A DNA stretch of 21,296 nt from a virus: positions 1 through 21,296 of the IMG/VR virus record IMGVR_UViG_3300008262_000488; one strand, written 5' to 3'. Position 1 is the stretch's first letter; the number at the start of each line of letters is the position of its first letter. Below are positions 8,570 through 21,296 of the stretch, piece after piece. The notes beneath the pieces were generated by a model. That model made no database searches, had not been told where the DNA came from, and worked only from the letters and a program-made list of their open reading frames with translations. The translations under genes and the position numbers were made by a program.

Positions 8570-9990
8570 TATCTACCGCCTTGTTGTGTATATTCTATAT
8601 CCAATCCTATAGCATGTGTCCAAGTGCCACTAGGAGTTGATTTAAGTCTATGATAACGACCATAGGATCTTAAAGGAACTCTACCTTCAGATGATGCAGC
8701 TAAAGCTGTTGAATATGTAATGTTATCATCTAATTCACGTCTAGATGCTATAGCAACGCTTGCAGAGCCATTATCTATTTGTGGTCTAGCTAAAGTAATC
8801 ACAGAGTTATAACCTAACTCTATATCGCCTACAGTTAAAGAAGCTGTAGAATTGCCACCTGTAAATGTAGCAATTTTAGCACCATCTGCACCACCTAATA
8901 AGAACTTACCACCTGACCATACACGAGAGTCTAGTGAAGCAGGAAGTGAGTCTAATGTTCCGTAAGCATCTAAACCTTCTAATGTCACACCAGAAGATGC
9001 TAGAGATACAATATACTCTAAAGAAGTGTCAGCAGATGACCATTTCTTTACTAACCAGTTATAGATAAGTAAAGAACGACCACCGTTAGTATTAGGATAG
9101 TTCCATATTACAATATTACGAATAGGATCTATAGCAGCACTTATAGTATCTTGTTGTGATAATGACATGTTTTGATAAAAGTATTCATCTACTTTATCAT
9201 TGCCAATATTAAACAATTGTGTACCATCACACATATAAAAGCCGTCATCAGCTAGGAAGTATGTATTCGGACCATATTGTGTAATAGATCCAGAAGTATT
9301 ACAGCCTAAATTACGAGAGATTGTGTCAAACTGGAAGAACAATGGAGATCCAACATATGACATTCTTACAATAGCTTTTTCTAATAATACAATGCCAAAC
9401 TCACCACCAGTAATGCCTGTAATGTTTCCACCTTCAGCAATTACTTGGTAATCTGATTGTGAAGCACCACCAGAAGTCCAATCCGTCTCGTCATTGATAT
9501 CCGACCATTGGAGTTTGTTTGTATCGTTACCAATACTTGCTGCCACTACAAAGTCACGAACTACTGTAATAAATTTAGCTATAGGTGCACTTGCAGATAC
9601 ATCAGCAAAGTTTGTAGATGATCCGATAGTCCATGCTTGAATCTTGTCATCATTATTAGCTGCTAATACAGAATTACCAAACTGAACAAAACTCCAACGA
9701 TCTGCACTAGAGTATCCACCAGCTTTAGATGCGTCATCCAATCCTGTTGTACCAGAATTAAATTTAAATAGTTTGGTAGTACCGCCTGCAAATAATTGAG
9801 TCGTAAGATCAAATTTAGCAGCAAATACATTGTTTAAGTTTTCACTAGCTGCTGTAGAATAGTCTGCAGATAATGGAAATGGTGCATATCCTATAGTGAT
9901 AGGATAGACGTTATTAGCTTCTAACAAAGCTCCAGTAGTCGTAGGTTGATCTGGCAACCATTCCGTAAACTCTATTCTTTGAGTAGCCAT
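8569..9990 (-). CDS. Tail hub / stabilisation protein, P22 gp10-like
   Basis: This 473-aa protein has an N-terminus (MATQRIEFTEWLPDQP, then NNVYPITIGYAPFP) and a series of beta strands with spaced motifs such as WSFVQFGNSVLAANNDDKIQ, FVVAASIGND and YFLADDGFYMCDG. These are typical of the phage tail hub or stabilisation proteins of the P22 gp10 type, which have a propeller-like architecture and close the tail below the portal. Residues 336-358 carry the motif TLEGLDAYGTLDSLPASLD, which recurs twice in the repetitive protein at 15569-16537. The stop of the previous gene (TAA) forms part of its TAAGGAA ribosome binding site nine bases upstream. The length fits the family. Confidence 0.75.
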   Translation of the reverse strand: MATQRIEFTEWLPDQPTTTGALLEANNVYPITIGYAPFPLSADYSTAASENLNNVFAAKFDLTTQLFAGGTTKLFKFNSGTTGLDDASKAGGYSSADRWSFVQFGNSVLAANNDDKIQAWTIGSSTNFADVSASAPIAKFITVVRDFVVAASIGNDTNKLQWSDINDETDWTSGGASQSDYQVIAEGGNITGITGGEFGIVLLEKAIVRMSYVGSPLFFQFDTISRNLGCNTSGSITQYGPNTYFLADDGFYMCDGTQLFNIGNDKVDEYFYQNMSLSQQDTISAAIDPIRNIVIWNYPNTNGGRSLLIYNWLVKKWSSADTSLEYIVSLASSGVTLEGLDAYGTLDSLPASLDSRVWSGGKFLLGGADGAKIATFTGGNSTASLTVGDIELGYNSVITLARPQIDNGSASVAIASRRELDDNITYSTALAASSEGRVPLRSYGRYHRLKSTPSGTWTHAIGLDIEYTQQGGR

Positions 9991-10376: not shown

Positions 10377-10838
10377 TTAAATATGTTTCCAGGTATTGCT
10401 ACGCCAAATACGATAGATTGTAGATGGAACTACATTAAATTCTTGGCATAATTTTTTATAATTTTCATTCATTCTATTTTTTATAGAAACTATTTGGTCA
10501 TTAGTTAATTTATGATGACCTTGCATTTCACCTTTAGCTTGTCTATTTTTATTTATTTTATCTTTTATATTATCTTGATGAGTTCCATAAAATAAATGTT
10601 TAGGATTTACACATAATGGATTATCACAAGTATGACATACACACATTCCATCTTGTTTTCCTAAATGTATTTCAGCAGAATATCTATGTGCTTTAGTTTG
10701 TTTATTATTATCACCATCCCAAAATTGACCATAACCATCTTTATCTACACCAGCAACATAATTCCAACATTCATTATCTAAACGTTTATCTACTTTACTC
10801 CAAAATCTTATTAAACTATTTGTTTTTGATCTAGCCAT
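10377..10838 (-). CDS. Free-standing HNH homing endonuclease
   Basis: This 153-aa protein has an HNH_3-type nuclease core at about residues 50-95, with MCVCHTCDNPLCVNPKHLFY holding His69, Asn78 and His81 of the betabetaalpha-metal site, and cysteines (68, 71, 76) near it. Downstream, residues 105-153 (HHKLTNDQIVSIKNRMNENY, then STIYRIWRSNTWKHI) look like a helix-turn-helix DNA-binding tail as in NUMOD/HNH homing enzymes. No intron is evident, so it is a stand-alone mobile gene between two tail genes. Its base composition looks richer in AT than its neighbours, a sign of separate origin. Its ribosome binding site AAGGTGAT contains the TGA stop of the preceding gene, so it is precisely fitted to the operon. 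Confidence 0.88.
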   Translation of the reverse strand: MARSKTNSLIRFWSKVDKRLDNECWNYVAGVDKDGYGQFWDGDNNKQTKAHRYSAEIHLGKQDGMCVCHTCDNPLCVNPKHLFYGTHQDNIKDKINKNRQAKGEMQGHHKLTNDQIVSIKNRMNENYKKLCQEFNVVPSTIYRIWRSNTWKHI

Positions 10839-10841
10839 ATA

Positions 10842-13800
10842 TCACCTTGCATTAGAAATTTTTGTAGGATTCTCTGCAAATGCCATATATATGTATGTTC
10901 CAGCATTAACAATATCAAATCCACTTCTTAATTTAAATCCATTTGAAAGAAAGTCAATATTTACTTGAGAAGTTGTAGATTCTGCCTGTGAACTATCTGC
11001 TGCTAAATAATCATCAACAACATTAAAAGGACTTCTAGAAGAATCTTCCATTACCCAATTATTACCGCTATCTGTTCTTTTAATTAATACAAATTTAGGT
11101 CTAAATCCTAAATAAATAAATGGACCGTCTGTAGAACCATTACCTGTGTAAGAACCAAACTTACTAAACCCTGCTATTTCTGCCCAGCAATAGGCTACCA
11201 TGCCAGGACTTCCTGAAGTATTGGTTGTTCCTGCAGAACCAACACTAAATACAGTTGATGTAGGGTCTGTATTGTTCCAAGCAAGTGAAGTTGTATTAGC
11301 AGCATTAGTTAAGTTTAAATAAAGTGTTTTAGTCCCACCTAATGATGTATGGTATACACTCCATGATTCTGTTCCTCTATACCTTGTAAATATCATTTTA
11401 GGTGCTACACCTAAACCATGTCCTACTGTAGCGTTAGCACCTGTTCCTGTATAAGTTACAACACTAAACCCAGTAGTTGTATTAGCTCTTACTTGTGATG
11501 ATATAGAACCGCTTGTATTAGTTACTGTAGAACTACCAGCTTGCCATTGCCATGCTACATAAGTAATGCCAGATTGGTTACCAGCAGTATCAGTTCCTAT
11601 GTTAAAACCATTTGAATTAAATGCAGTAACCATAGTTGATTGAGTAGATTCTGCGTTTGTGCCAAATGTTTCTAGTTGTTTTGTAGCTCCACGAACAGCG
11701 TCATACAACCAACTTCCATAAGCTGCTGATCTTGCTTGTCCCCAAACTAAATCTGGTCTAAATAAGCCAGCATTTGTTATACTTGTATTAGCACCATTTC
11801 CTGTATATAGCGTTGCATCCATAAACCTATTACCCTGTAATATAGTAGGAGTAGGAAGGTTAAATGTGTTTAGTCTTACAAAGCCTGTAGGAGGTGTGTA
11901 AGTAAATGGTCTTTGACCAAAGTTTAAAAATCCACCATTACCAGAGTTATCAAATTGATAAGGTAAATATGTATATCCACTTGTAGTAGTTGTAGCACCT
12001 TGAGATACATTATTTTTATAAAATACAACGCTATTATTGTCAGCATCATACGCTACACCAATAACATCTCCAGTTGTATATGAAGCTCCATAAGCAATAC
12101 TGTTAGTGCCATTAAGCCATTTAGTTCCATTTCTATTATATTTCACACCATAGTTTTCATCTGGCGGATTAAGACCTACAATACCTATTGCTGGTCCATT
12201 ACCTGCCCCAGTAGAACTATTATTTGTAAATTCAAAATAATATTTACCCGTGGATGGAAAAGCCATTGTTCCCCAGCATTCATAACTTGATCCAGCACCT
12301 CTTAAATTGCCTTCTGTTACAGAACCAGAAAGTTGTCTTATTGTTGGATTTAATACGCAATAATTAGCCACAGTCGCACTTGTGTTAGTAGGCACATCTA
12401 ACATAGCATCATAAGTTGTGCCAGCTGTTAAGCTAATGTTGTTAGTAGTCCAATTGTTATTGTTACCTGATGTGTCGTAGCCTAATGTTGTGGTAGATGT
12501 TGTGTTACCAAATGTTAGGTAGAAACCGTTAGTTCCGTATGTGCCTGTGTATTTAATTGGTTTCCATACACCGTTAGCGTCATTGTTACCAAAGTAATAT
12601 GGTTCTAGTGCTTGACCGTCAATGAAGTTAATGTCAGTCATGTAGCCATCAAATTGTTGGTCGCTATTCCAGCTTCTTCTTCCTATTGTATGAAGTGCTG
12701 TGCTGTTAAAATATGTATCTCCATTTAATGTTGGATATGCAGAACCTACTTGAAATGAAGTTTGTTGATTGCCATTTACATATATCTTTAATCTATTTGC
12801 TTCTGTTGCTTGTGTTGTATCACAAGCCACTACTAAATGATACCAAGCAGATGGGTCTCGTGGCATTAAATTTGTAATTAAATCAGAACCAGCCGCACCA
12901 TTTACACGAAAACTATAATTAGTTCCATCATTAAGATAAATTGCAGTTTGTCCTTGTGCGCCAAATAATGTTCCCATATTTACAGAAATAGTGCCTAGTT
13001 TTATCCAAGCAGACCATGTCCATGTTTTTCTATTAGATGCAACACTTGGTGTTCTATTTAAATATGCAGACGCACTTCCTCTAAACCTTAAAGAATTGTT
13101 TAGGTTATTAGTAAGTGGTGTTAAAGCACCTGTAGCTGTAAATGTGTGGATAGTATTACCACCTGATGATGTGACTAGACCACCATTAAATACTTGTGAG
13201 CCAGCGTATAAGATGATAACGACACCTGAACCACCTGACTGACCGTTAGTTGCTCCTAATGGATCACCTGCTAAACCACCAGCGCCACCGCCTGTGTTTT
13301 GAGTGCCTGGTGTATTGCCTGTATTGCTTGCTCCAGCTCCTCCGTTACCACCACCACCTTGACCACCTGTGCCAGCACTTCCTGAAGAGTAAGCTCCACC
13401 ACCGCCACCACCTGCATAATATGTAGCTGTGCCTGATATAGATGATTGAGTTCCTATACCGCCTGCACCACCTGTGATTGTAACGGCTACCGAACCTGCT
13501 GCTCCTGCTCCGCCACCACCGCCACCAGCGTTTACACCAGCTCCACCATTATTTCCTTGCCCACTTGTGCCTGTTCCTGCTGTTCTAGGTGATTCACCGC
13601 TACCTCCGCCTCCTGAACCTCCGTTAGCGCCTGTGCCTGTAGAGCCACCGCCTCCACCTCCACCTGTGGAAGTTAATGTTGTTAATCCTGTTCCTGATAA
13701 TACAGAATTGCTACCACTTGGTGCTACACCTGAAGATGTGCCTCCTGCTCCACCCGCACCTACAGTAACTACATAAGTTGCGCCTGAATAAAGAGTTGTA

Positions 13801-14801
13801 GAACCTGATAATAAACCACCAGCTCCACCTCCGCCTCCACCAGCATATCCACCTAATTGTCTAGCACTTCCACCACCACCAGCTACGACTAAATAACTAG
13901 CTGTTACAGGTGTAAGAGGGCTTAATGTGCCTGAAGATGTGAATGTGTGTATTTGGTTACCACCTGAAGTAGTAAGAGTGCCACCTATGAATTTTGGTGT
14001 AGCAGATGCATAGGATATGATGACTACTCCTGAACCTCCTGCAGCTCCTGCTCCAGCTCCTCCGCCTCCTGCAGAACCTCCACCGCCTCCACCACCACCG
14101 CCTAAATTAACAGTTCCTGCAGAGTTAGCTGTTCCACCACCGCCTGTTCCACCTAAACCACCGTTAGATGTTGTTCCATATGCAGTATTATAGTAACCAG
14201 CTCCGCCTCCACCACCTGCGTATGTTACGGATGAGCCTGAAATAGAAGATGATAAACCATTACCACCAGCTCCGCCTGTAGAAGAACCAGAAGCATTACC
14301 ACCAACTGCACCAGCACCACCGCCACCTGCACCTGACTGGTTAGTTGCATCATTAAGACCATCACCACCTGCATTACCTTGACCAGATGTTGCAGAGCCA
14401 CCAAACCTATTAGTAGTTGACCTACCTCCGCCACCACCGCCAGAACCACCTGAACCTGCTGCTACATTATTGTAACCACCATAACCGCCACCAACTGAAG
14501 TAACAGTAGTTAAGCCTGTACCTGAAATAACTGAACTACTACCTTGAGAACCAATAGTATTTATTGCACCACCATTGCCACCTGCACCTACAGCAATAGA
14601 ATAAGTATTAAGAGTAGATAGAGTAAATGTAGATGTTTGGTAGCCACCAGCACCGCCACCTCCACCACCTGCAGTTCCACCTGCACCTCCGCCTCCACCA
14701 GCAACAACAAGATAAGATGCTGCTACTTTGTTTTTATCTGCGGCAGATAGAATACCATAAGCTCTTGCGGCTTGTACGGCTAGTCTTGACAATAATGACA
14801 T
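10842..14801 (-). CDS. Giant Gly-rich/LamG/SPRY tail protein
   Basis: This 1319-aa protein is the best candidate for host recognition. Domain order: a short helical N-terminus (1-25) that may anchor it to the tail; two homologous Gly-rich modules (about 28-299 and 300-565), each starting ASYLVVAGGGG and ending with an IHTF motif and PLT; a LamG/concanavalin-like domain (about 568-770, with TWSAWIKLG, WYHLVVACD and KIYVNGN); a SPRY-like domain (about 840-985, with GKYYFEF and GDVIGVAYDADNNSVVFYKN); and about 330 residues of DUF7483-like repeats, each starting with a YTGNGA/YTGTGA-type strand and followed by a 'xRPDLVW'-type strand. Such Gly-rich lattice and lectin-like domains are usual in phage adhesins. 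Its TAG/GGA junction with the preceding fibre-like gene places it in the tail operon. A glycan ligand is inference. Confidence 0.78.
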   Translation of the reverse strand: MSLLSRLAVQAARAYGILSAADKNKVAASYLVVAGGGGGAGGTAGGGGGGAGGYQTSTFTLSTLNTYSIAVGAGGNGGAINTIGSQGSSSVISGTGLTTVTSVGGGYGGYNNVAAGSGGSGGGGGGRSTTNRFGGSATSGQGNAGGDGLNDATNQSGAGGGGAGAVGGNASGSSTGGAGGNGLSSSISGSSVTYAGGGGGAGYYNTAYGTTSNGGLGGTGGGGTANSAGTVNLGGGGGGGGGSAGGGGAGAGAAGGSGVVIISYASATPKFIGGTLTTSGGNQIHTFTSSGTLSPLTPVTASYLVVAGGGGSARQLGGYAGGGGGGAGGLLSGSTTLYSGATYVVTVGAGGAGGTSSGVAPSGSNSVLSGTGLTTLTSTGGGGGGGSTGTGANGGSGGGGSGESPRTAGTGTSGQGNNGGAGVNAGGGGGGAGAAGSVAVTITGGAGGIGTQSSISGTATYYAGGGGGGAYSSGSAGTGGQGGGGNGGAGASNTGNTPGTQNTGGGAGGLAGDPLGATNGQSGGSGVVIILYAGSQVFNGGLVTSSGGNTIHTFTATGALTPLTNNLNNSLRFRGSASAYLNRTPSVASNRKTWTWSAWIKLGTISVNMGTLFGAQGQTAIYLNDGTNYSFRVNGAAGSDLITNLMPRDPSAWYHLVVACDTTQATEANRLKIYVNGNQQTSFQVGSAYPTLNGDTYFNSTALHTIGRRSWNSDQQFDGYMTDINFIDGQALEPYYFGNNDANGVWKPIKYTGTYGTNGFYLTFGNTTSTTTLGYDTSGNNNNWTTNNISLTAGTTYDAMLDVPTNTSATVANYCVLNPTIRQLSGSVTEGNLRGAGSSYECWGTMAFPSTGKYYFEFTNNSSTGAGNGPAIGIVGLNPPDENYGVKYNRNGTKWLNGTNSIAYGASYTTGDVIGVAYDADNNSVVFYKNNVSQGATTTTSGYTYLPYQFDNSGNGGFLNFGQRPFTYTPPTGFVRLNTFNLPTPTILQGNRFMDATLYTGNGANTSITNAGLFRPDLVWGQARSAAYGSWLYDAVRGATKQLETFGTNAESTQSTMVTAFNSNGFNIGTDTAGNQSGITYVAWQWQAGSSTVTNTSGSISSQVRANTTTGFSVVTYTGTGANATVGHGLGVAPKMIFTRYRGTESWSVYHTSLGGTKTLYLNLTNAANTTSLAWNNTDPTSTVFSVGSAGTTNTSGSPGMVAYCWAEIAGFSKFGSYTGNGSTDGPFIYLGFRPKFVLIKRTDSGNNWVMEDSSRSPFNVVDDYLAADSSQAESTTSQVNIDFLSNGFKLRSGFDIVNAGTYIYMAFAENPTKISNAR
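13107..14720 (-). repeat. Tandem duplication of a Gly-rich module
   Basis: This part of the giant tail gene codes two consecutive modules of about 270 residues. Both begin with the same ASYLVVAGGGG strand, contain a SGTGLTT(V/L)TS strand about 65-70 residues later, carry a SGVVII strand, and close with GGN(Q/T)IHTFT followed by G(T/A)L(S/T)PLT. Between these landmarks they consist of glycine runs. The pattern indicates an internal duplication and makes the DNA locally GC-rich and prone to slippage. Confidence 0.8.
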
Positions 14802-14810
14802 TGTTAATTC

Positions 14811-15554
14811 CTACTTAAATTGAGTTTGAGCTGCGAATACAGAGAATGTTGCTGAACCTGTTTTAATAATTGTGTATGAGTAAGCATCTACACCTGAAGC
14901 ATTACCACTTGACCATGCTGTACCACCTTGATATTTAGGTGTAACAGATGAACCGTCAATTGTAACTGCGTTGTTATAGTATGCTGTAGCACCTTGTGAT
15001 ACTAGGAATACGACTGTGATAGCTTCACCTGTTGACATTGCTGTATCTAAAGATGTGCCTGATGAACCTCTAAAGTTTACAGTCCAGTTTGCACTTGCAT
15101 TAGTTGTATAGTATAACACAGACTGTGTAGTTACATCATAGTTAATAGTACCTGTAGCTGCTGTTGCTGATACAGTTACACCTTCTAAAGCGTTTGTAAA
15201 TTTAGATGCTAATACTGAAGATGTACCAGCAAATGTTTGTTTGCCTGTATATGAATTGTTTGAATTAGATGCTACATAGTTAGCATTATATGCTTGTACG
15301 TCTGTACCGATAGCAAGACCTAAATTTGATCTAGCCGTAGTAGCATTTGCTGCACCTGTACCACCAGCTGCAATAGGTATAGTGTCACCACTTGCACCTG
15401 ATTGCAAGTCTTTAACTTGTGCCATCAATGTGCGAATAGCATTATTAATACCTGAAGGTGCACAACCCTCATCAATATTAATATTTGCAATGTCGGTGTT
15501 TAGATTAGCACCAGCACTGGTTGATGAATATTCTGAAATTTTTGTCTTTGCCAT
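14811..15554 (-). CDS. Tail fibre-like protein
   Basis: This 247-aa protein has the typical start of a phage fibre or fibre-linker protein: MAKTKISEYS, then INIDEGCAPSGINNAIRTLM, a conserved helix, followed by IPIAAGGTGAANATTARSNL. That last segment is the 'GGTGA...AR.NLGL' shaft motif common to many tail fibres. The C-terminal 130 residues are beta-rich and Ser/Thr/Ala-rich and end in SATFSVFAAQTQFK, as in many small tail proteins. It probably trimerises. The preceding gene ends 14 bases upstream, with an AAGGA ribosome binding site in the gap. The giant tail protein gene follows at once, which suggests that the two form one host-recognition apparatus. The exact place in the virion is inferred. 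Confidence 0.75.
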   Translation of the reverse strand: MAKTKISEYSSTSAGANLNTDIANINIDEGCAPSGINNAIRTLMAQVKDLQSGASGDTIPIAAGGTGAANATTARSNLGLAIGTDVQAYNANYVASNSNNSYTGKQTFAGTSSVLASKFTNALEGVTVSATAATGTINYDVTTQSVLYYTTNASANWTVNFRGSSGTSLDTAMSTGEAITVVFLVSQGATAYYNNAVTIDGSSVTPKYQGGTAWSSGNASGVDAYSYTIIKTGSATFSVFAAQTQFK

Positions 15555-15568
15555 AATTGTTCCTTAAA

Positions 15569-16537
15569 TTAAACCCATGTATTACTGCTAGATGAAACGT
15601 TATTCCAAGTATTACTTCCTGTTGCAATGTCTGTCCATGTATTTGAACCTACACTAACATTATTCCAAGTATTACTTCCTGCTGAAACATTTGACCATGT
15701 TTCTGAACCACTAGGTACGTTATTCCATTCTTCACCTAGCCTATTAGCCACTGCAACAACTGTTGCGTTAGCTGAAATACTACCAACTCCATGTAAAATT
15801 GCATTTGCATCACATAATATAGTAGCTATAACTTCTATATCAGCAAATCCAGAATAAGTCATGCCACCTAATGCAGAGACACTTGCACTTGCAGTAATGT
15901 CTGCTACAGAAGTTCTTACCCTAATAGCTTCTGACTCAACTTGAGCATTAGCTGTAATTGTTCCTTCTGAAAGTCTATAACGAATACCTTCGCCTGTTAC
16001 TTCAGCTGTAGAAGTTATGTCTGCAGATGACTCATAAATAGCTATAGGACTTGCAGAAACGCTTGCTAACGCATTTATTTCACCATTACCTACTAACACC
16101 CTTACAGCATCAGCAGATACTGTAGCATCGCTTAAAATGCTTCCACTAGCAAAAGTAATTCTTGTAGGATCAGCTTCTAATTGAGCATTTCCTGTAATAA
16201 CAGCATCTCCAGTAGCTACTCTTATAGCACTAGATACTAAAGTAGCATCGCCTGTAATACTTGCTTCACCTGTTCTTAATCTATTTGCTTCTGCTGTTAC
16301 GTCTGCATTAGATGTAATAACTGCATCAGCTAAATTAATACAAGCACCAGATTCCCATATTGGGTCATCTAGTGATATTGCTAAACTATCTATACTTCCA
16401 AAAACATCTAACTGATCTAGAGTCCATGATCCACAAACTCTAGTTCCGTTATCATAAAATGTATTATCTAAACTATATGGTACATTTTCCAAGCTACCAT
16501 AAACGTCTAGCTCTTCTAGCGTCATTGGTGTTGGCAT
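15569..16537 (-). CDS. Highly repetitive tail-associated protein
   Basis: This 322-aa protein is almost entirely repeats. Residues 6-27 and 39-61 are two copies of a motif of the form TL(E/D)xLDV(Y/F)GS(L/I)(E/D), followed by xSLD. The same motif occurs once in the gp10-like hub. Residues 67-268 contain about ten beta-strand repeats of about 20 residues, each with an ITxxA-type strand and a (V/A)xAxAxR(V/L)R-type strand. Residues 270-322 are five to six repeats of ten residues built on WNNVSxGSNT. No catalytic motif, signal peptide or membrane segment is visible. The shared motif and position between adaptor and fibre genes argue for a tail or neck structural role, possibly a fibrous or surface-exposed one. 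I do not recognise a named family. Confidence 0.65.
   Translation of the reverse strand: MPTPMTLEELDVYGSLENVPYSLDNTFYDNGTRVCGSWTLDQLDVFGSIDSLAISLDDPIWESGACINLADAVITSNADVTAEANRLRTGEASITGDATLVSSAIRVATGDAVITGNAQLEADPTRITFASGSILSDATVSADAVRVLVGNGEINALASVSASPIAIYESSADITSTAEVTGEGIRYRLSEGTITANAQVESEAIRVRTSVADITASASVSALGGMTYSGFADIEVIATILCDANAILHGVGSISANATVVAVANRLGEEWNNVPSGSETWSNVSAGSNTWNNVSVGSNTWTDIATGSNTWNNVSSSSNTWV
15572..15730 (-). repeat. Ten-residue W-x-N-V-x-x-G-S-N-T repeats
   Basis: The 3' end of the repetitive gene codes five to six units of ten residues (30 bases each), with Trp in position 1 and GSNT at the end. At the DNA level a stretch of about 22 bases is identical at 15600-15621 and 15660-15681, exactly 60 bases apart, which suggests recent unit duplication. 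Confidence 0.85.
15734..16339 (-). repeat. About ten 20-residue beta-strand repeats
   Basis: Residues 67-268 of the repetitive protein divide into about ten units of about 20 residues. Each has a small-residue turn (GEA, GDA, SSA, SEG, SVA), an ITGxA/ITSxA-type strand and a second strand ending RVRT/RVAT/RYRL. The copies are divergent, so this is an old amplification, unlike the near-identical C-terminal repeats. A beta-solenoid or beta-helix shape is possible. Confidence 0.75.
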
Positions 16538-16545
16538 AATTTACC

Positions 16546-17376
16546 TTAAGCTAATGTAACAGATAGGCTACCTGAAGCTATTTTAAAAATATCGCCTGTA
16601 TCAATAGTTTTAGATGTTGTTAATGGTGTATGGTAAAGTAAGTTACCAGATGTTGAAGCATCATAAATACCAATGTGTGATACTGTACCCCATGAACCAG
16701 TTGCTTGGTCAAAAGTAATATCTGCAGTTGTTACTGAAGCACCGTTAGATGGTGCACCAAATGTAGCTGATTTTCTTGTATATCCATTGCCAGATAGTTC
16801 TGTACCAGAACCTGCATCTGTTGGATCAGATGTAAATAATGCTACATAAACTGTTGATGGTGATGTATATGATGTGTTTCGTAGAGTTGCATTGATAAGT
16901 GCTAAAGCACCATATAATAATAAATCTGGGCAATTAGCTAAAAACACATTGGATGATACTGATGCACTTAAATATTCTGGTGCTGCGTAATAAATCATAT
17001 TAAGTGCATATGCACTATCTGGAACAGGTGCAAATTGTAATTCAGCACCTAAAGATGTATATTTTGTAGGTTGACCAGATTCTGTAACTCTACCGTTAGT
17101 ATAAAAACTAGGGATACTTAAATATTCAATTGTTGCTACTGGATTAGTTGCTAGATATAATCCACGCATAGCTAAAAAGTCACTAGGTAATGCAACTGTG
17201 CTATCACCTGCTGTCATTGTTGTTGTGACTACTTTTAACATTTGACGGATACGAAGATCACGTCTTAATCTATTTTCTGCTAATGTAATAAAGTCTGGAA
17301 TTTGTGATGTTAGATCACTACGAGCAAGATAATCAGCTATCGTGCTTTTTAATGTTGTATATGATGTAAAAGCCAT
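16546..17376 (-). CDS. Head-tail adaptor fused to second tail domain
   Basis: This 276-aa protein joins two families. Residues 1-157 have the features of podovirus head-tail adaptors: a helical start MAFTSYTTLKSTIADYLARS, FITLAENRLRRDLRIR, VALPSDFLAMRGLYL, LQFAPVPDSAYALNMIYYA and CPDLLLYGALA. The expected C-terminal adaptor helices then stop. From about residue 159 (LINATLRNTSYTSPSTVYVA) to the end the sequence matches a domain I know as a separate small phage tail protein, with VALFTSDPTDAG, GTVSHIGIYDA and GNLLYH. The fusion is in frame with no visible frameshift. The start overlaps the previous stop as TAATG. It would bind the portal ring beneath the capsid; what the second domain does there is unknown. 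Confidence 0.75.
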   Translation of the reverse strand: MAFTSYTTLKSTIADYLARSDLTSQIPDFITLAENRLRRDLRIRQMLKVVTTTMTAGDSTVALPSDFLAMRGLYLATNPVATIEYLSIPSFYTNGRVTESGQPTKYTSLGAELQFAPVPDSAYALNMIYYAAPEYLSASVSSNVFLANCPDLLLYGALALINATLRNTSYTSPSTVYVALFTSDPTDAGSGTELSGNGYTRKSATFGAPSNGASVTTADITFDQATGSWGTVSHIGIYDASTSGNLLYHTPLTTSKTIDTGDIFKIASGSLSVTLA

Positions 17377-17729
17377 TACACTCTACCCTCTCGTGTTCTA
17401 AACACTTTATTATCTGGATCGTTTAAGAATTCTTTAAATCGTTTTTGGTCAACGATATGGAAACCTCGCATAATACCTTTATGGTTTAGCGAATCAATAA
17501 CTGTCATTGGAATAGATGCAATCTTATTGTCAAATACATCATCACCCCAACGAGTGCGTCTGTCTGTTAATTTTCTTTGTTGTAAATTATTTTCAATAAT
17601 ATCACTAATATCTTGTCTAGTTTCAAGCACTAGACCTTGATCTGTATCGTGTGCTACAGATGTTCTAAATGTTGTAGGTTTTGTCATATTAAAATGTCGC
17701 AATAAAAAGAATAACAGAGGTGTAGGCAT
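17376..17729 (-). CDS. Small conserved head/neck protein, start uncertain
   Basis: This 117-aa protein of unknown function is found near capsid genes in related phages. The conserved-looking part is AHDTDQGLVLETRQDISDII, then RWGDDVFDNKIASIPMTVID and GIMRGFHIVDQKRFKEFLND, which is acidic/basic and soluble. Two starts compete. ATG at 17729 has a long GAGGTGAT ribosome binding site, but both lie inside a terminator-like hairpin, and the U-tract would then code a hydrophobic LLFFLL run. ATG at 17687 (MTKPTTFRTS, protein of 103 aa) gives a more natural N-terminus but has no Shine-Dalgarno. I report the longer form because of the ribosome binding site. The stop overlaps the adaptor start as TAATG. 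A completion or neck role is inferred from position only. Confidence 0.62.
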   Translation of the reverse strand: MPTPLLFFLLRHFNMTKPTTFRTSVAHDTDQGLVLETRQDISDIIENNLQQRKLTDRRTRWGDDVFDNKIASIPMTVIDSLNHKGIMRGFHIVDQKRFKEFLNDPDNKVFRTREGRV

Positions 17730-17744
17730 GACCTATCACCTCTG
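17701..17744 (-). terminator. Intrinsic terminator after the major capsid gene
   Basis: Read on the minus strand, CAGAGGTG plus TAGG pairs with CCTA plus CACCTCTG. This gives twelve base pairs with one bulged base and a five-base loop (17715-17744), followed directly by UUAUUCUUUUUAUUG (17714-17700). The hairpin starts 35 bases after the capsid stop. It contains the GAGGTGAT ribosome binding site and one possible ATG (17729, in the loop) of the next gene, so it may cut both transcription and translation of downstream genes relative to capsid. Confidence 0.7.
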
Positions 17745-17752
17745 CATTCAAC

Positions 17753-17770
17753 AATGGATAAAAATCCATT
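17753..17770 (-). other. Small hairpin in the capsid 3' leader region
   Basis: A perfect seven-base inverted repeat (AATGGAT and ATCCATT) with a four-base loop lies between the capsid stop codon and the terminator hairpin. It has no U-tract of its own. It could protect the 3' end of the capsid message or be incidental. Confidence 0.45.
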
Positions 17771-17779
17771 AACCTTCTA

Positions 17780-18733
17780 CTACTCTGCCAAGTCAGCAAT
17801 AATTGCGTGAGCAGCTTCGTTCTTAACTTCTAGTGTGTATTCTACTAAAAGTTGAGTTACATCAGCGTCACCAACTTTTGCTAATTCGTTTGTAGCAAAT
17901 GGACGTAAGTAAGCAACTGCTGCCATTTCTGGATCAAGCACAAATGCAACTTCACCACTGTCACCTGAATCAGCTGGAATAAATCTGTTAGGAACAACAG
18001 AGATAGTACCAAAGTCTGAAAGGTAAACATCAGCAGCACCGATGATTGTTGATTGCTTGTCAGATGGAGCCATGTAACGTTGTGCAGCAATACCAGCAAA
18101 ACCAGACACTACTTGTTTTTGTGTTGGAGTTACCATTAATACTGTTGGGTTACCACCAGCTGTGTATGCTTTTTTAACAGCAGATTTTAACATTGTTTCT
18201 GTGAAAGCTGCGTCTGTACCAGATACACGAGCAGTTGTACCACCAGAACCAGCAGTACCGTTAGTACCACCAACGTAGTTAGTATTTAACCATGCTTGTA
18301 AACCACCAAGTGTACGAGCTGTTGTTGCATTACCAGCTGCATTTAATTGGTTGCTTAAAAGGATGTATTCCATGTCACGTTTGATTTCAGCAGAAGCTTT
18401 AGCTAATTGGTAAGCCTTTTCAGATTTACGACCAGCTTTGTTTACTGCTTCTAAAGTACCAGCAATCTTCACAGTTTTTTGTGAGATTTGTGTACGGTTA
18501 CCAACTCGTGTTGTTGGGCTTAATGTAGCGTCAGATGCTGTTGCACCTTCAACTGCAGCGTTAGAACCATTAACAGATGCTAATGAGTCTGTTTGCCATT
18601 CATGGAGAACGCCAGTAGCTTTAGTTTTGCCTACTGATGACATAAATGGTGTTTCTGTTGGAGAAATGTTATAGATAACGTCTGTTAAATCTTCACGTTG
18701 ACCTATAGCGGTATAGGTTTGATATGTTGCCAT
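17780..18733 (-). CDS. Major capsid protein, DUF5309/SU10 type
   Basis: This 317-aa protein forms the icosahedral shell. The N-terminus (MATYQTYTAIGQREDLTDVI, then ISPTETPFMSSVGKTKA and HEWQTDSLA) and the RVGNRTQISQKTVKIAGT segment are hallmarks of the DUF5309/SU10-like HK97-fold major head proteins. The later KSEKAYQLAKASAEIKRDME helix and a GGNPTVLMVTPTQKQVVSGF core strand/helix fit the same fold. The length is usual for the family, with no sign of a cleaved prodomain. Two TAG stops follow in tandem. The ribosome binding site is weak (AGAAAGAAG), odd for the most abundant virion protein. It directly follows the scaffold gene and is followed by a terminator-like hairpin, so message from upstream promoters would be enriched for the head genes. 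Confidence 0.88.
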   Translation of the reverse strand: MATYQTYTAIGQREDLTDVIYNISPTETPFMSSVGKTKATGVLHEWQTDSLASVNGSNAAVEGATASDATLSPTTRVGNRTQISQKTVKIAGTLEAVNKAGRKSEKAYQLAKASAEIKRDMEYILLSNQLNAAGNATTARTLGGLQAWLNTNYVGGTNGTAGSGGTTARVSGTDAAFTETMLKSAVKKAYTAGGNPTVLMVTPTQKQVVSGFAGIAAQRYMAPSDKQSTIIGAADVYLSDFGTISVVPNRFIPADSGDSGEVAFVLDPEMAAVAYLRPFATNELAKVGDADVTQLLVEYTLEVKNEAAHAIIADLAE

Positions 18734-18748
18734 GTTTTATTCTTCTTT

Positions 18749-19744
18749 CTATTCTAAAAATTGTTCAAATAAAGCTGCTGCGTCACGGACATGTCCGCTG
18801 GTACGCAACTGTGCTTTCTGTTTTTTAATTGTTTCTGTGTTGTTACTACTTGTAGACGATCCAGCCTTTAGCATCTTTGGTGCTTCAGAAACTTTCTTCG
18901 TTACAGCAGGTTTTGACTTTTGAAGCTTGTCATACATCATTGCCTTGTGTAGTGTAACAACGTGCCTAGAATCATAGACGTGAGATAATTCTACATCTGT
19001 GAAACCAAGCGATTTGCCATAATTGCGAATCTCATTACGGAGGTTTTCGCCTTTAGCTGGGTCTGAAAACTCTGGCAAGACTTGTGTTAATTTTTGTGCT
19101 TCCTGTGCAACTCTTTCTTGCATGGCACGAGCATTTTCAGATTGTTGCATTTCTGCAATTCTGTATTGTTCGGCTCTTATAGCATTGAGTTGTTCTTTCT
19201 TTTCAGAAAGTTCAGCAACTTTAACAGCATAGCCTATCGGGTCGTTTTCTTTGAGGTATGTTAAATCCTCATTAGGAGATTGCGAGACTATAAATTGCTC
19301 TATAGCTTGCAAACGTTGAGCGTATGTATCACGAGCATACTTGGCTTCCTCAATTGCTGCACGTTCAGCTTCAACAGCTTTACGTTGTTCAGCAACTTCA
19401 GTAGTTTTTTTTGTATAATCAGCACCAAGTTGATAACCTTTAATTAAATCGTCAAGGGTGACATCCTTTTCTTCGCCAGCAGCTTTTACTTTAAAAGTCT
19501 GGGGGAGTTCCTCTTCTTCAACTTCGGTTTCTTCTTGTTCTTCAGCTTCACCTTCTTCTGTTTCTACTTCTTCAGTTTGTGGCTCTGCTTCTTGAGCTTC
19601 TGCTTGTTCAGTTTCTTGTTCACCTTCTAATTGCTCCGTAGAGTTAGCTGGGGTGTTCATTAGACCTTCAAAAGCATTGGCTGCTTGACCTACAGTAAGC
19701 GTGCCACTTCCAGAATCTTCTGGAGTCATGGTTGTTTCACTCAT
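18749..19744 (-). CDS. Capsid scaffolding protein
   Basis: This 331-aa protein directly upstream of the capsid gene has the classic scaffold composition. It has a Ser/Thr/Gly N-terminus, a strongly acidic stretch at about residues 40-80 made mostly of Glu and Gln, then a short globular segment (FKVKAAGEEKDVTLDDLIKG, a motif I associate with phage scaffolds). A long charged coiled coil follows at about 115-215, and a basic C-terminus at about 280-310 that could bind the capsid shell. No protease motif is visible, so it is a scaffold without an obvious maturation protease domain. It begins 48 bases after the 77-aa gene with an AGGAAA ribosome binding site and ends 15 bases before the capsid start. 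Confidence 0.82.
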   Translation of the reverse strand: MSETTMTPEDSGSGTLTVGQAANAFEGLMNTPANSTEQLEGEQETEQAEAQEAEPQTEEVETEEGEAEEQEETEVEEEELPQTFKVKAAGEEKDVTLDDLIKGYQLGADYTKKTTEVAEQRKAVEAERAAIEEAKYARDTYAQRLQAIEQFIVSQSPNEDLTYLKENDPIGYAVKVAELSEKKEQLNAIRAEQYRIAEMQQSENARAMQERVAQEAQKLTQVLPEFSDPAKGENLRNEIRNYGKSLGFTDVELSHVYDSRHVVTLHKAMMYDKLQKSKPAVTKKVSEAPKMLKAGSSTSSNNTETIKKQKAQLRTSGHVRDAAALFEQFLE

Positions 19745-19779
19745 TTTTATTTCCTATAATCCTCTAGGGGAGGTAACCC

Positions 19780-19799
19780 ATTTTAGAAATGTCTAAAAT
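19780..19799. repeat. Perfect 8-base inverted repeat at a stop codon
   Basis: ATTTTAGA and TCTAAAAT flank a four-base loop, giving a perfect but AT-only-rich hairpin that includes the TAG stop of the 77-aa gene. No U-tract follows on the minus strand, so it is not a convincing terminator. It may be a weak mRNA structure between that gene and the scaffold gene. Confidence 0.4.
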
Positions 19800-20026
19800 A
19801 TCTTCCATGCTTTACTTTTAATGTCGCTAGTTTTAGCGATTGATTCCAAGTAAGACATAAGTTCGTTATAACAAGCTATTCTTTGATAGGCTTGTTCACG
19901 CACATCTGTTTGATCTGCATTAGAGTAGATGATGCGTTGTAATTGATTTTCTTGTAGCTCTTTAACTACAGCTTGAAAATGTTCGTCATTAAGTATGCTA
20001 GTAATAGCGTCTACTTTATTGGACAT
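19793..20026 (-). CDS. Small helical protein between portal and scaffold
   Basis: This 77-aa, mostly helical and charged protein has no recognised name. Similar-sized genes sit in the same place between portal and scaffold in many podoviruses. Segments such as FQAVVKELQENQLQRIIYSN and REQAYQRIACYNELMSYLES look like two amphipathic helices. It overlaps the portal 3' end by 11 bases and has an AAAGGAAA ribosome binding site inside the portal gene, so it is translated with the portal. There is no membrane segment. A minor head or assembly-factor role is inferred from position only. Confidence 0.65.
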   Translation of the reverse strand: MSNKVDAITSILNDEHFQAVVKELQENQLQRIIYSNADQTDVREQAYQRIACYNELMSYLESIAKTSDIKSKAWKIF

Positions 20027-21296
20027 TATTATTTCCTTTTGTCATATTGTTGATAGTATTTAAAGCATCTACAATAGATTTGGTATTAGTGCCACGAGTT
20101 TGTTCTGCTTGGTTAGCAGCATCAGTTTCAATCTTCAATTGTTTAAGAGCTAATTCAGTATTTTGTTTTAGTTCTTGTTGTTGAAGTTCTAATGCTTTGC
20201 GAGCATTATCTAATTGCATTTGCTCACGTTCTAACTCAAGTTTAGCAGCTTCTGTTTGAGCACGAATAACTGCTTTTTCACGTTCAACTTCAGCTAATAC
20301 TTTTGCAGCTTCTGTATTAGGATCTAGTTTTTCTGGTTGAGGTTGTGAAAGTGCTTCATTTTGCTCTGGTGTAATTTCATTCATGAATTGTGCAGCATCT
20401 TTGAAACCAGCCATGTTAATAAACTTGGCTAATGTATTGCGATATTGCATTAAGTTCACTAATGGATTAGATAGACCATATTGCTGAATGATTTGCTCTT
20501 GTTTTTGCAAGATCATTTGCATAGTAGTTAATTGTTCTTGACGAGTACCTGTACCTAAACCTACGTTAATAGATACATTGTATTGGTCATTCCATTCACG
20601 AGGATTAAATGGTACAAATTTGCCATTTATACGCACCAAACGCTCTTTATCTTGATATTTGCATAGTAGGTGTAGGATTCCTTTGAAAAGGCTCTTAACG
20701 CCTGTTTCTGCAAAGATACGAGCTATTAATTCAAGCTTTCCTGCACTTGATTGTGACATTGCTGACACAGCAGCGGCTGTTACGTTTTGTAAGATGTTAG
20801 GGTCTATACCATTTTGTGAATCTGACACACCTGTACGTCTTGCTTGTACGCCATCGAGGTATTCAAGCATTGGGAATGATCCAGATGTAGTAGGTTGTAC
20901 AGTTAATGGTACAATAGCGTTAGGATTCTTCATTCTAACTACGCCACCTGCTGTAGATGTGAGTAAATCATCAAGATTTACCTGTCCTTCTACTGCACCA
21001 ACACGATAATTATTTGTTAAGTAGAGGTTATCCAACATTTGTCTTAAAACAGTAGACTTAATCAGTTGTAAATCTAGTGCACGATCAGCTAAAGACTGTC
21101 CGTAGAACTTATGTGGGATAGGAATTGGGCAAAGTGAGTGGAATGGGATGTAATCACACTCCATATCTTCTAAAACTTCGTTAGAAGCGTAAACAACACG
21201 TCTTAATTCAGCAATGCCATCATTATTGTAGTCAACTTTTATGTAACATTCGTAAACTTCTACGACTTCCATAGATTCATCTTGTGAACCCATGCT
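20016..21296 (-). CDS. Portal protein, P22 type, 3' part
   Basis: This is the C-terminal part of the portal, the twelve-fold ring at the capsid vertex through which DNA enters and leaves. The open frame runs off the window edge. The ATG at 21293 is internal, because the visible part begins in the middle of the protein and P22-type portals are much longer. Supporting segments are the wing/stem region YIKVDYNNDGIAELRRVVYA, FHSLCPIPIPHKFYGQSLAD, YLTNNYRVGAVEGQVNLDDL, and GVSDSQNGIDPNILQNVTAA. The last 120 residues form a long Gln/Glu/Lys/Ala coiled coil, which fits the barrel/coil of P22-like portals. It overlaps the next gene by 11 bases. The terminase genes expected upstream are outside the window. 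Confidence 0.85.
   Translation of the reverse strand, partial: SMGSQDESMEVVEVYECYIKVDYNNDGIAELRRVVYASNEVLEDMECDYIPFHSLCPIPIPHKFYGQSLADRALDLQLIKSTVLRQMLDNLYLTNNYRVGAVEGQVNLDDLLTSTAGGVVRMKNPNAIVPLTVQPTTSGSFPMLEYLDGVQARRTGVSDSQNGIDPNILQNVTAAAVSAMSQSSAGKLELIARIFAETGVKSLFKGILHLLCKYQDKERLVRINGKFVPFNPREWNDQYNVSINVGLGTGTRQEQLTTMQMILQKQEQIIQQYGLSNPLVNLMQYRNTLAKFINMAGFKDAAQFMNEITPEQNEALSQPQPEKLDPNTEAAKVLAEVEREKAVIRAQTEAAKLELEREQMQLDNARKALELQQQELKQNTELALKQLKIETDAANQAEQTRGTNTKSIVDALNTINNMTKGNNNVQ

Follow-up and report, generated by a model that had tools for sequence, protein, structure and literature searches.

The 276-residue open reading frame (ORF) in which a head-tail adaptor runs directly into a Gp80-family protein is most likely an assembly error at an ordinary pair of adaptor and Gp80 genes. 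We analysed it within a 21,296-nucleotide stretch of viral DNA, referred to here as the window (Table 1). Misassembly is the likelier explanation because the flanks are unchanged over 3.6 kb, none of the other records searched carries the fusion, and the window's nearest relatives come from a contig series in which similar gaps recur. An earlier note had proposed that loss of the adaptor C-terminus could change the neck; on these same grounds that reading is not supported, and the assembly join, which the note had named as something to exclude, is the likelier one.

An ORF joining two protein families

The ORF reading places the gene on the minus strand, the plus strand of the same interval being full of stops. 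Pfam searches divide the product in two: PF24175 (SU10_adaptor) matches residues 4–169 (E 1.1e-27, 98 bits, cutoff 27) and PF23140 (Gp80) matches residues 155–274 (E 2.7e-45, 154 bits, cutoff 27), with phrog_2941 and phrog_240 matching the first and second half, respectively. The PF24175 match ends at profile position 163 of 194 for the fusion ORF and at position 147 for the adaptor half alone. Each half searched on its own matches only its own Pfam family, in agreement with the earlier note's claim of two unrelated families. The coordinates given there and the split into an adaptor and a small protein were also correct by ORF reading, Pfam and PHROGs; the strand is added here.

The surrounding genes make up a typical head module, with the portal followed by a small ORF, a protein in the position of the scaffold, the capsid and a second small ORF, and the adaptor gene lies between capsid and tail genes, beside the portal module, as is typical of its family. 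The locus is best read as an ordinary podovirus neck module comprising portal, scaffold, capsid, small ORF, head-tail adaptor and Gp80. The 322-aa protein downstream carries degenerate repeats of the ITANAxVxA type with SNTWNNVS repeats at its end; no Pfam family scored above cutoff for it, and PHROGs gave no match either. Elsewhere on the minus strand, the window encodes a 1319-aa tail protein with a glycine-rich region, a SPRY domain and a C-terminal DUF7483 (10842–14801), an HNH endonuclease ORF (PF13392) inserted among the tail genes (10377–10838), and an ORF of the SprT-like metalloprotease type (PF10263) whose score falls exactly at the family cutoff (530–886).

Table 1 Features of the window around the apparent fusion, and blunt gaps in related contigs (gap positions are those of the contig named).
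Feature	Position	Strand	Remarks
Apparent fusion ORF, adaptor + Gp80, 276 aa	16546..17376	-	ATG start, no internal stop
Adaptor part, residues 1-158	16903..17376	-	PF24175, E 1.6e-27 when searched alone
Gp80 part, residues 159-276	16546..16902	-	Lacks first 10 residues (MAEMSNYLEN); PF23140, E 1.6e-45 when searched alone
Join	16902..16903	-	177 bp of L049 (2383-2559) absent in window; edges share 1 bp
Small ORF, 117 aa, PHROG 3982	17376..17729	-	Upstream neighbour in usual order
Major capsid protein, PHROG 1328	17780..18733	-	
Portal protein, C-terminal 425 aa, PHROG 1216	20016..21293	-	Cut by contig end
Repeat-rich 322-aa protein	15569..16537	-	Downstream neighbour; gene broken twice in L057
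L057 (3300008110)	1562, 1992 and 2833		Gaps of 152, 176 and 72 bp
L059 (IMGVR_UViG_3300008267_000827)	894 and 2505		Gaps of 103 and 157 bp
L063 (3300008265)	6186		Gap of 197 bp
L189 (3300008266)	7306		Gap of 62 bp
L207 (3300008107)	2807		Gap of 267 bp
L231 (3300008263)	8882		Gap of 116 bp

A 177-bp difference from a near-identical contig

The closest comparison is with IMGVR_UViG_3300008108_001846 (L049), which is 99.1–99.8% identical to the window across 5.1 kb. Over window positions 14344–17953 the two show zero mismatches, and their sole difference is 177 extra bases in L049 at 16902, which encode adaptor residues 159–203 (45 residues), the stop, a 9-bp spacer and Gp80 residues 1–10. With these 177 bp missing across the adaptor/Gp80 boundary, the two genes stay in one frame and are therefore read as one. 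The earlier note's deletion model, in which the adaptor lost its C-terminus and the following gene its N-terminus, together with a stop between them, is thus matched base for base by L049. The note's estimate of the junction (16890–16905) brackets the exact join, which the alignment places at position 16902 of the window, corresponding to base 475 of the gene.

Repeat-mediated collapse at this point was rejected: the edges overlap by 1 bp only, and a search around the join found no direct repeat pairing them. Neither the window nor the loci compared up to that point contained any N, although scaffold gaps stripped of their N-runs would look the same. A second gap in the window near 8954–9179, suggested by phage record MW202481, was likewise rejected, since the gene there aligns without gaps to contig 3300046804 (94% over all 473 residues).

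Related phages carry separate adaptor and Gp80 genes

None of 82 loci, comprising the 80 best relatives in IMG/VR and two phage records, is fused; adaptor and Gp80 are separate genes that share a frame, with a spacing of mostly 3 to 9 bp. After two further searches the count stood at 0 of 168 pairs, some contigs being counted twice, and a degenerate pattern built on the peptide at the fused junction had no match in IMG/VR. A natural adaptor–Gp80 fusion family would require an independent fused relative, and none was found among the records searched, a set from which records very close to the window may have been missing. The two phage records share the gene order from portal to Gp80 and keep the genes apart, by 9 bp in MW202481 (an uncultured podovirus from Manatee Spring, 91% identical in DNA to the window over 16902–21296) and by 6 bp in MT375522 (Methylophilales phage Venkman).

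The missing segment is conserved and includes a modelled helix

Intact adaptors of the relatives are 202–206 aa long. The motif EAEPYL-ND-R, which is invariant in 22 diverse adaptors, belongs to the missing part, and the first ten residues of Gp80 have a mean conservation of 0.95, vs 0.81 for the remainder. Judged by this conservation, the lost sequence is strongly constrained.

The intact L049 adaptor was modelled by AlphaFold with a pLDDT of 86 and a pTM of 0.75, showing a helix at residues 170–193 followed by a disordered tail, and its fold resembles the adaptors of Pseudomonas phage Pa223 (PDB 9nwi) and phage SU10 (gp11, PDB 7z47) with a TM-score of about 0.8. Whereas this intact relative aligns with the SU10-type adaptor through both the C-terminal helix and the arm, the window copy lacks a complete helix bundle, the C-terminal helix and the portal-binding arm falling within the missing 177 bp. 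Gp80 normally has its own gene, and the intact Gp80 of L049 can be aligned from its first residue (E 9.8e-17) with the chain of Ralstonia phage GP4 (PDB 8jou, 'Fiber I and fiber-tail-adaptor'); the window copy is fused, and the start codon and conserved N-terminus that relatives keep are absent. The model of the fusion protein has a pTM of 0.49 and a pLDDT of about 60 just past the join, and in it the adaptor helix at 150 continues into the Gp80 helix to 167.

The adaptor of phage SU10 makes up a ring of 12-fold symmetry that separates portal from nozzle, with an embracing loop wedged between the portal clip domains (PMC9509320), and in phage DEV the C-terminal arm of the adaptor inserts between portal protomers (PMC10925440). 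A phage with only the fused protein would be expected to fail in neck assembly, because the fusion loses both the last helix and the arm.

Blunt gaps recur in one contig series

In an all-against-all comparison of 219 distinct related contigs, we counted those with a comparator of ≥95% identity over ≥1 kb and scored as gaps only blunt ones (0–1 bp overlap) inside an ORF. Of the 13 contigs that belong to IMG series 3300008107–8267, 6 had such gaps, as did 1 of the 132 others; the Fisher p of 1e-6 is descriptive because the series was singled out once its first cases were known. Contigs of the series may have more near-identical comparators, which is partly controlled in that the 132 others also met the comparator threshold, and in four of the six cases the contigs or their comparators were obtained after the series had been picked out.

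Gap sizes in the series range from 62 to 267 bp, and the gap in the window, 177 bp long with an overlap of 1 bp, sits in the middle of this distribution. Seven of nine gaps are out of frame, which matches the chance expectation for random joins; among them, the 157-bp gap of L059, detected against less similar comparators, frame-shifts the portal gene. The nearest relatives of the window, L049 and L057, both come from this series, and the aligned blocks of L057, which span most of window positions 14908–16902, show 100% identity. From its identity to these two contigs, the window itself appears to belong to the gap-prone series. The gaps look like a dataset-wide assembly fault in 3300008107–8267; a literature search on its dataset ids found no paper. 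Similar gaps of 97, 95, 144 and 235 bp (at 2815, 3971, 5792 and 8900) were seen in a contig from another dataset (IMGVR_UViG_3300021599_000216).

Misassembly and its alternatives

We favour an assembly or scaffolding error in which two contig ends would have been joined and the 177 bp between them dropped. Against it, the gap preserves the reading frame (a chance of 1 in 3), lies close to the gene boundary and leaves most of both domains in place. The likelihoods that we attach to this and the other readings are judgements, not calculations.

Deletions of this kind, through illegitimate recombination, do occur in phages, and the exact loss relative to an otherwise identical L049, with its near-blunt join, is what would be seen if part of the population carried a real but defective allele that the assembler happened to pick. 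The adaptor, lacking the arm and the last helix, would then not be seated on the portal, and the genome would persist only if complemented or else in a dead-end particle. We consider this unlikely, as there is no reason why a dead allele should be the majority form, and comparable out-of-frame gaps occur in sister contigs, one of them in the portal gene. Several such gaps suggest a common technical cause.

A strain chimera, with sequences from two strains meeting at 16902, would itself be a kind of misassembly and overlaps with the main reading. Three contigs (L057, L052 and L064) indeed resemble the window more closely on their Gp80 side (97–100%) than on their adaptor side (89–92%), but L049 carries both sides with intact genes between them, identical to the window over the 3.6 kb described above, and we regard such a chimera as improbable.

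A functional fusion, one chain serving as adaptor ring and Gp80 with the N-terminal helix of Gp80 substituting for the last adaptor helix, is very improbable, as is a living phage whose neck consists of a single chain joining Gp80 to an adaptor without its portal-gripping helix and arm: the ORF is in frame, both domains are recognisable and the modelled helix runs across the join, but the lost segment is near-invariant among relatives, the DEV arm inserts into the portal, copy numbers need not match (fibre collar and adaptor stand at 15:12 in DEV and GP4; PMC10925440), and the 168 pairs hold no second example.

Under misassembly, and by homology, the adaptor (about 203 aa) would sit in the phage as a ring under the portal, which its last helix and C-terminal arm would grip, and Gp80 would be a separate small protein of the neck or of fibre attachment. 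The adaptor–Gp80 fusion is thus likely not a real feature of this virus. More broadly, in one public metagenome contig series genes seem to be fused or frame-shifted by silent blunt gaps some 60–270 bp long, and fusions or broken genes found there should therefore not be read as biology without read support.
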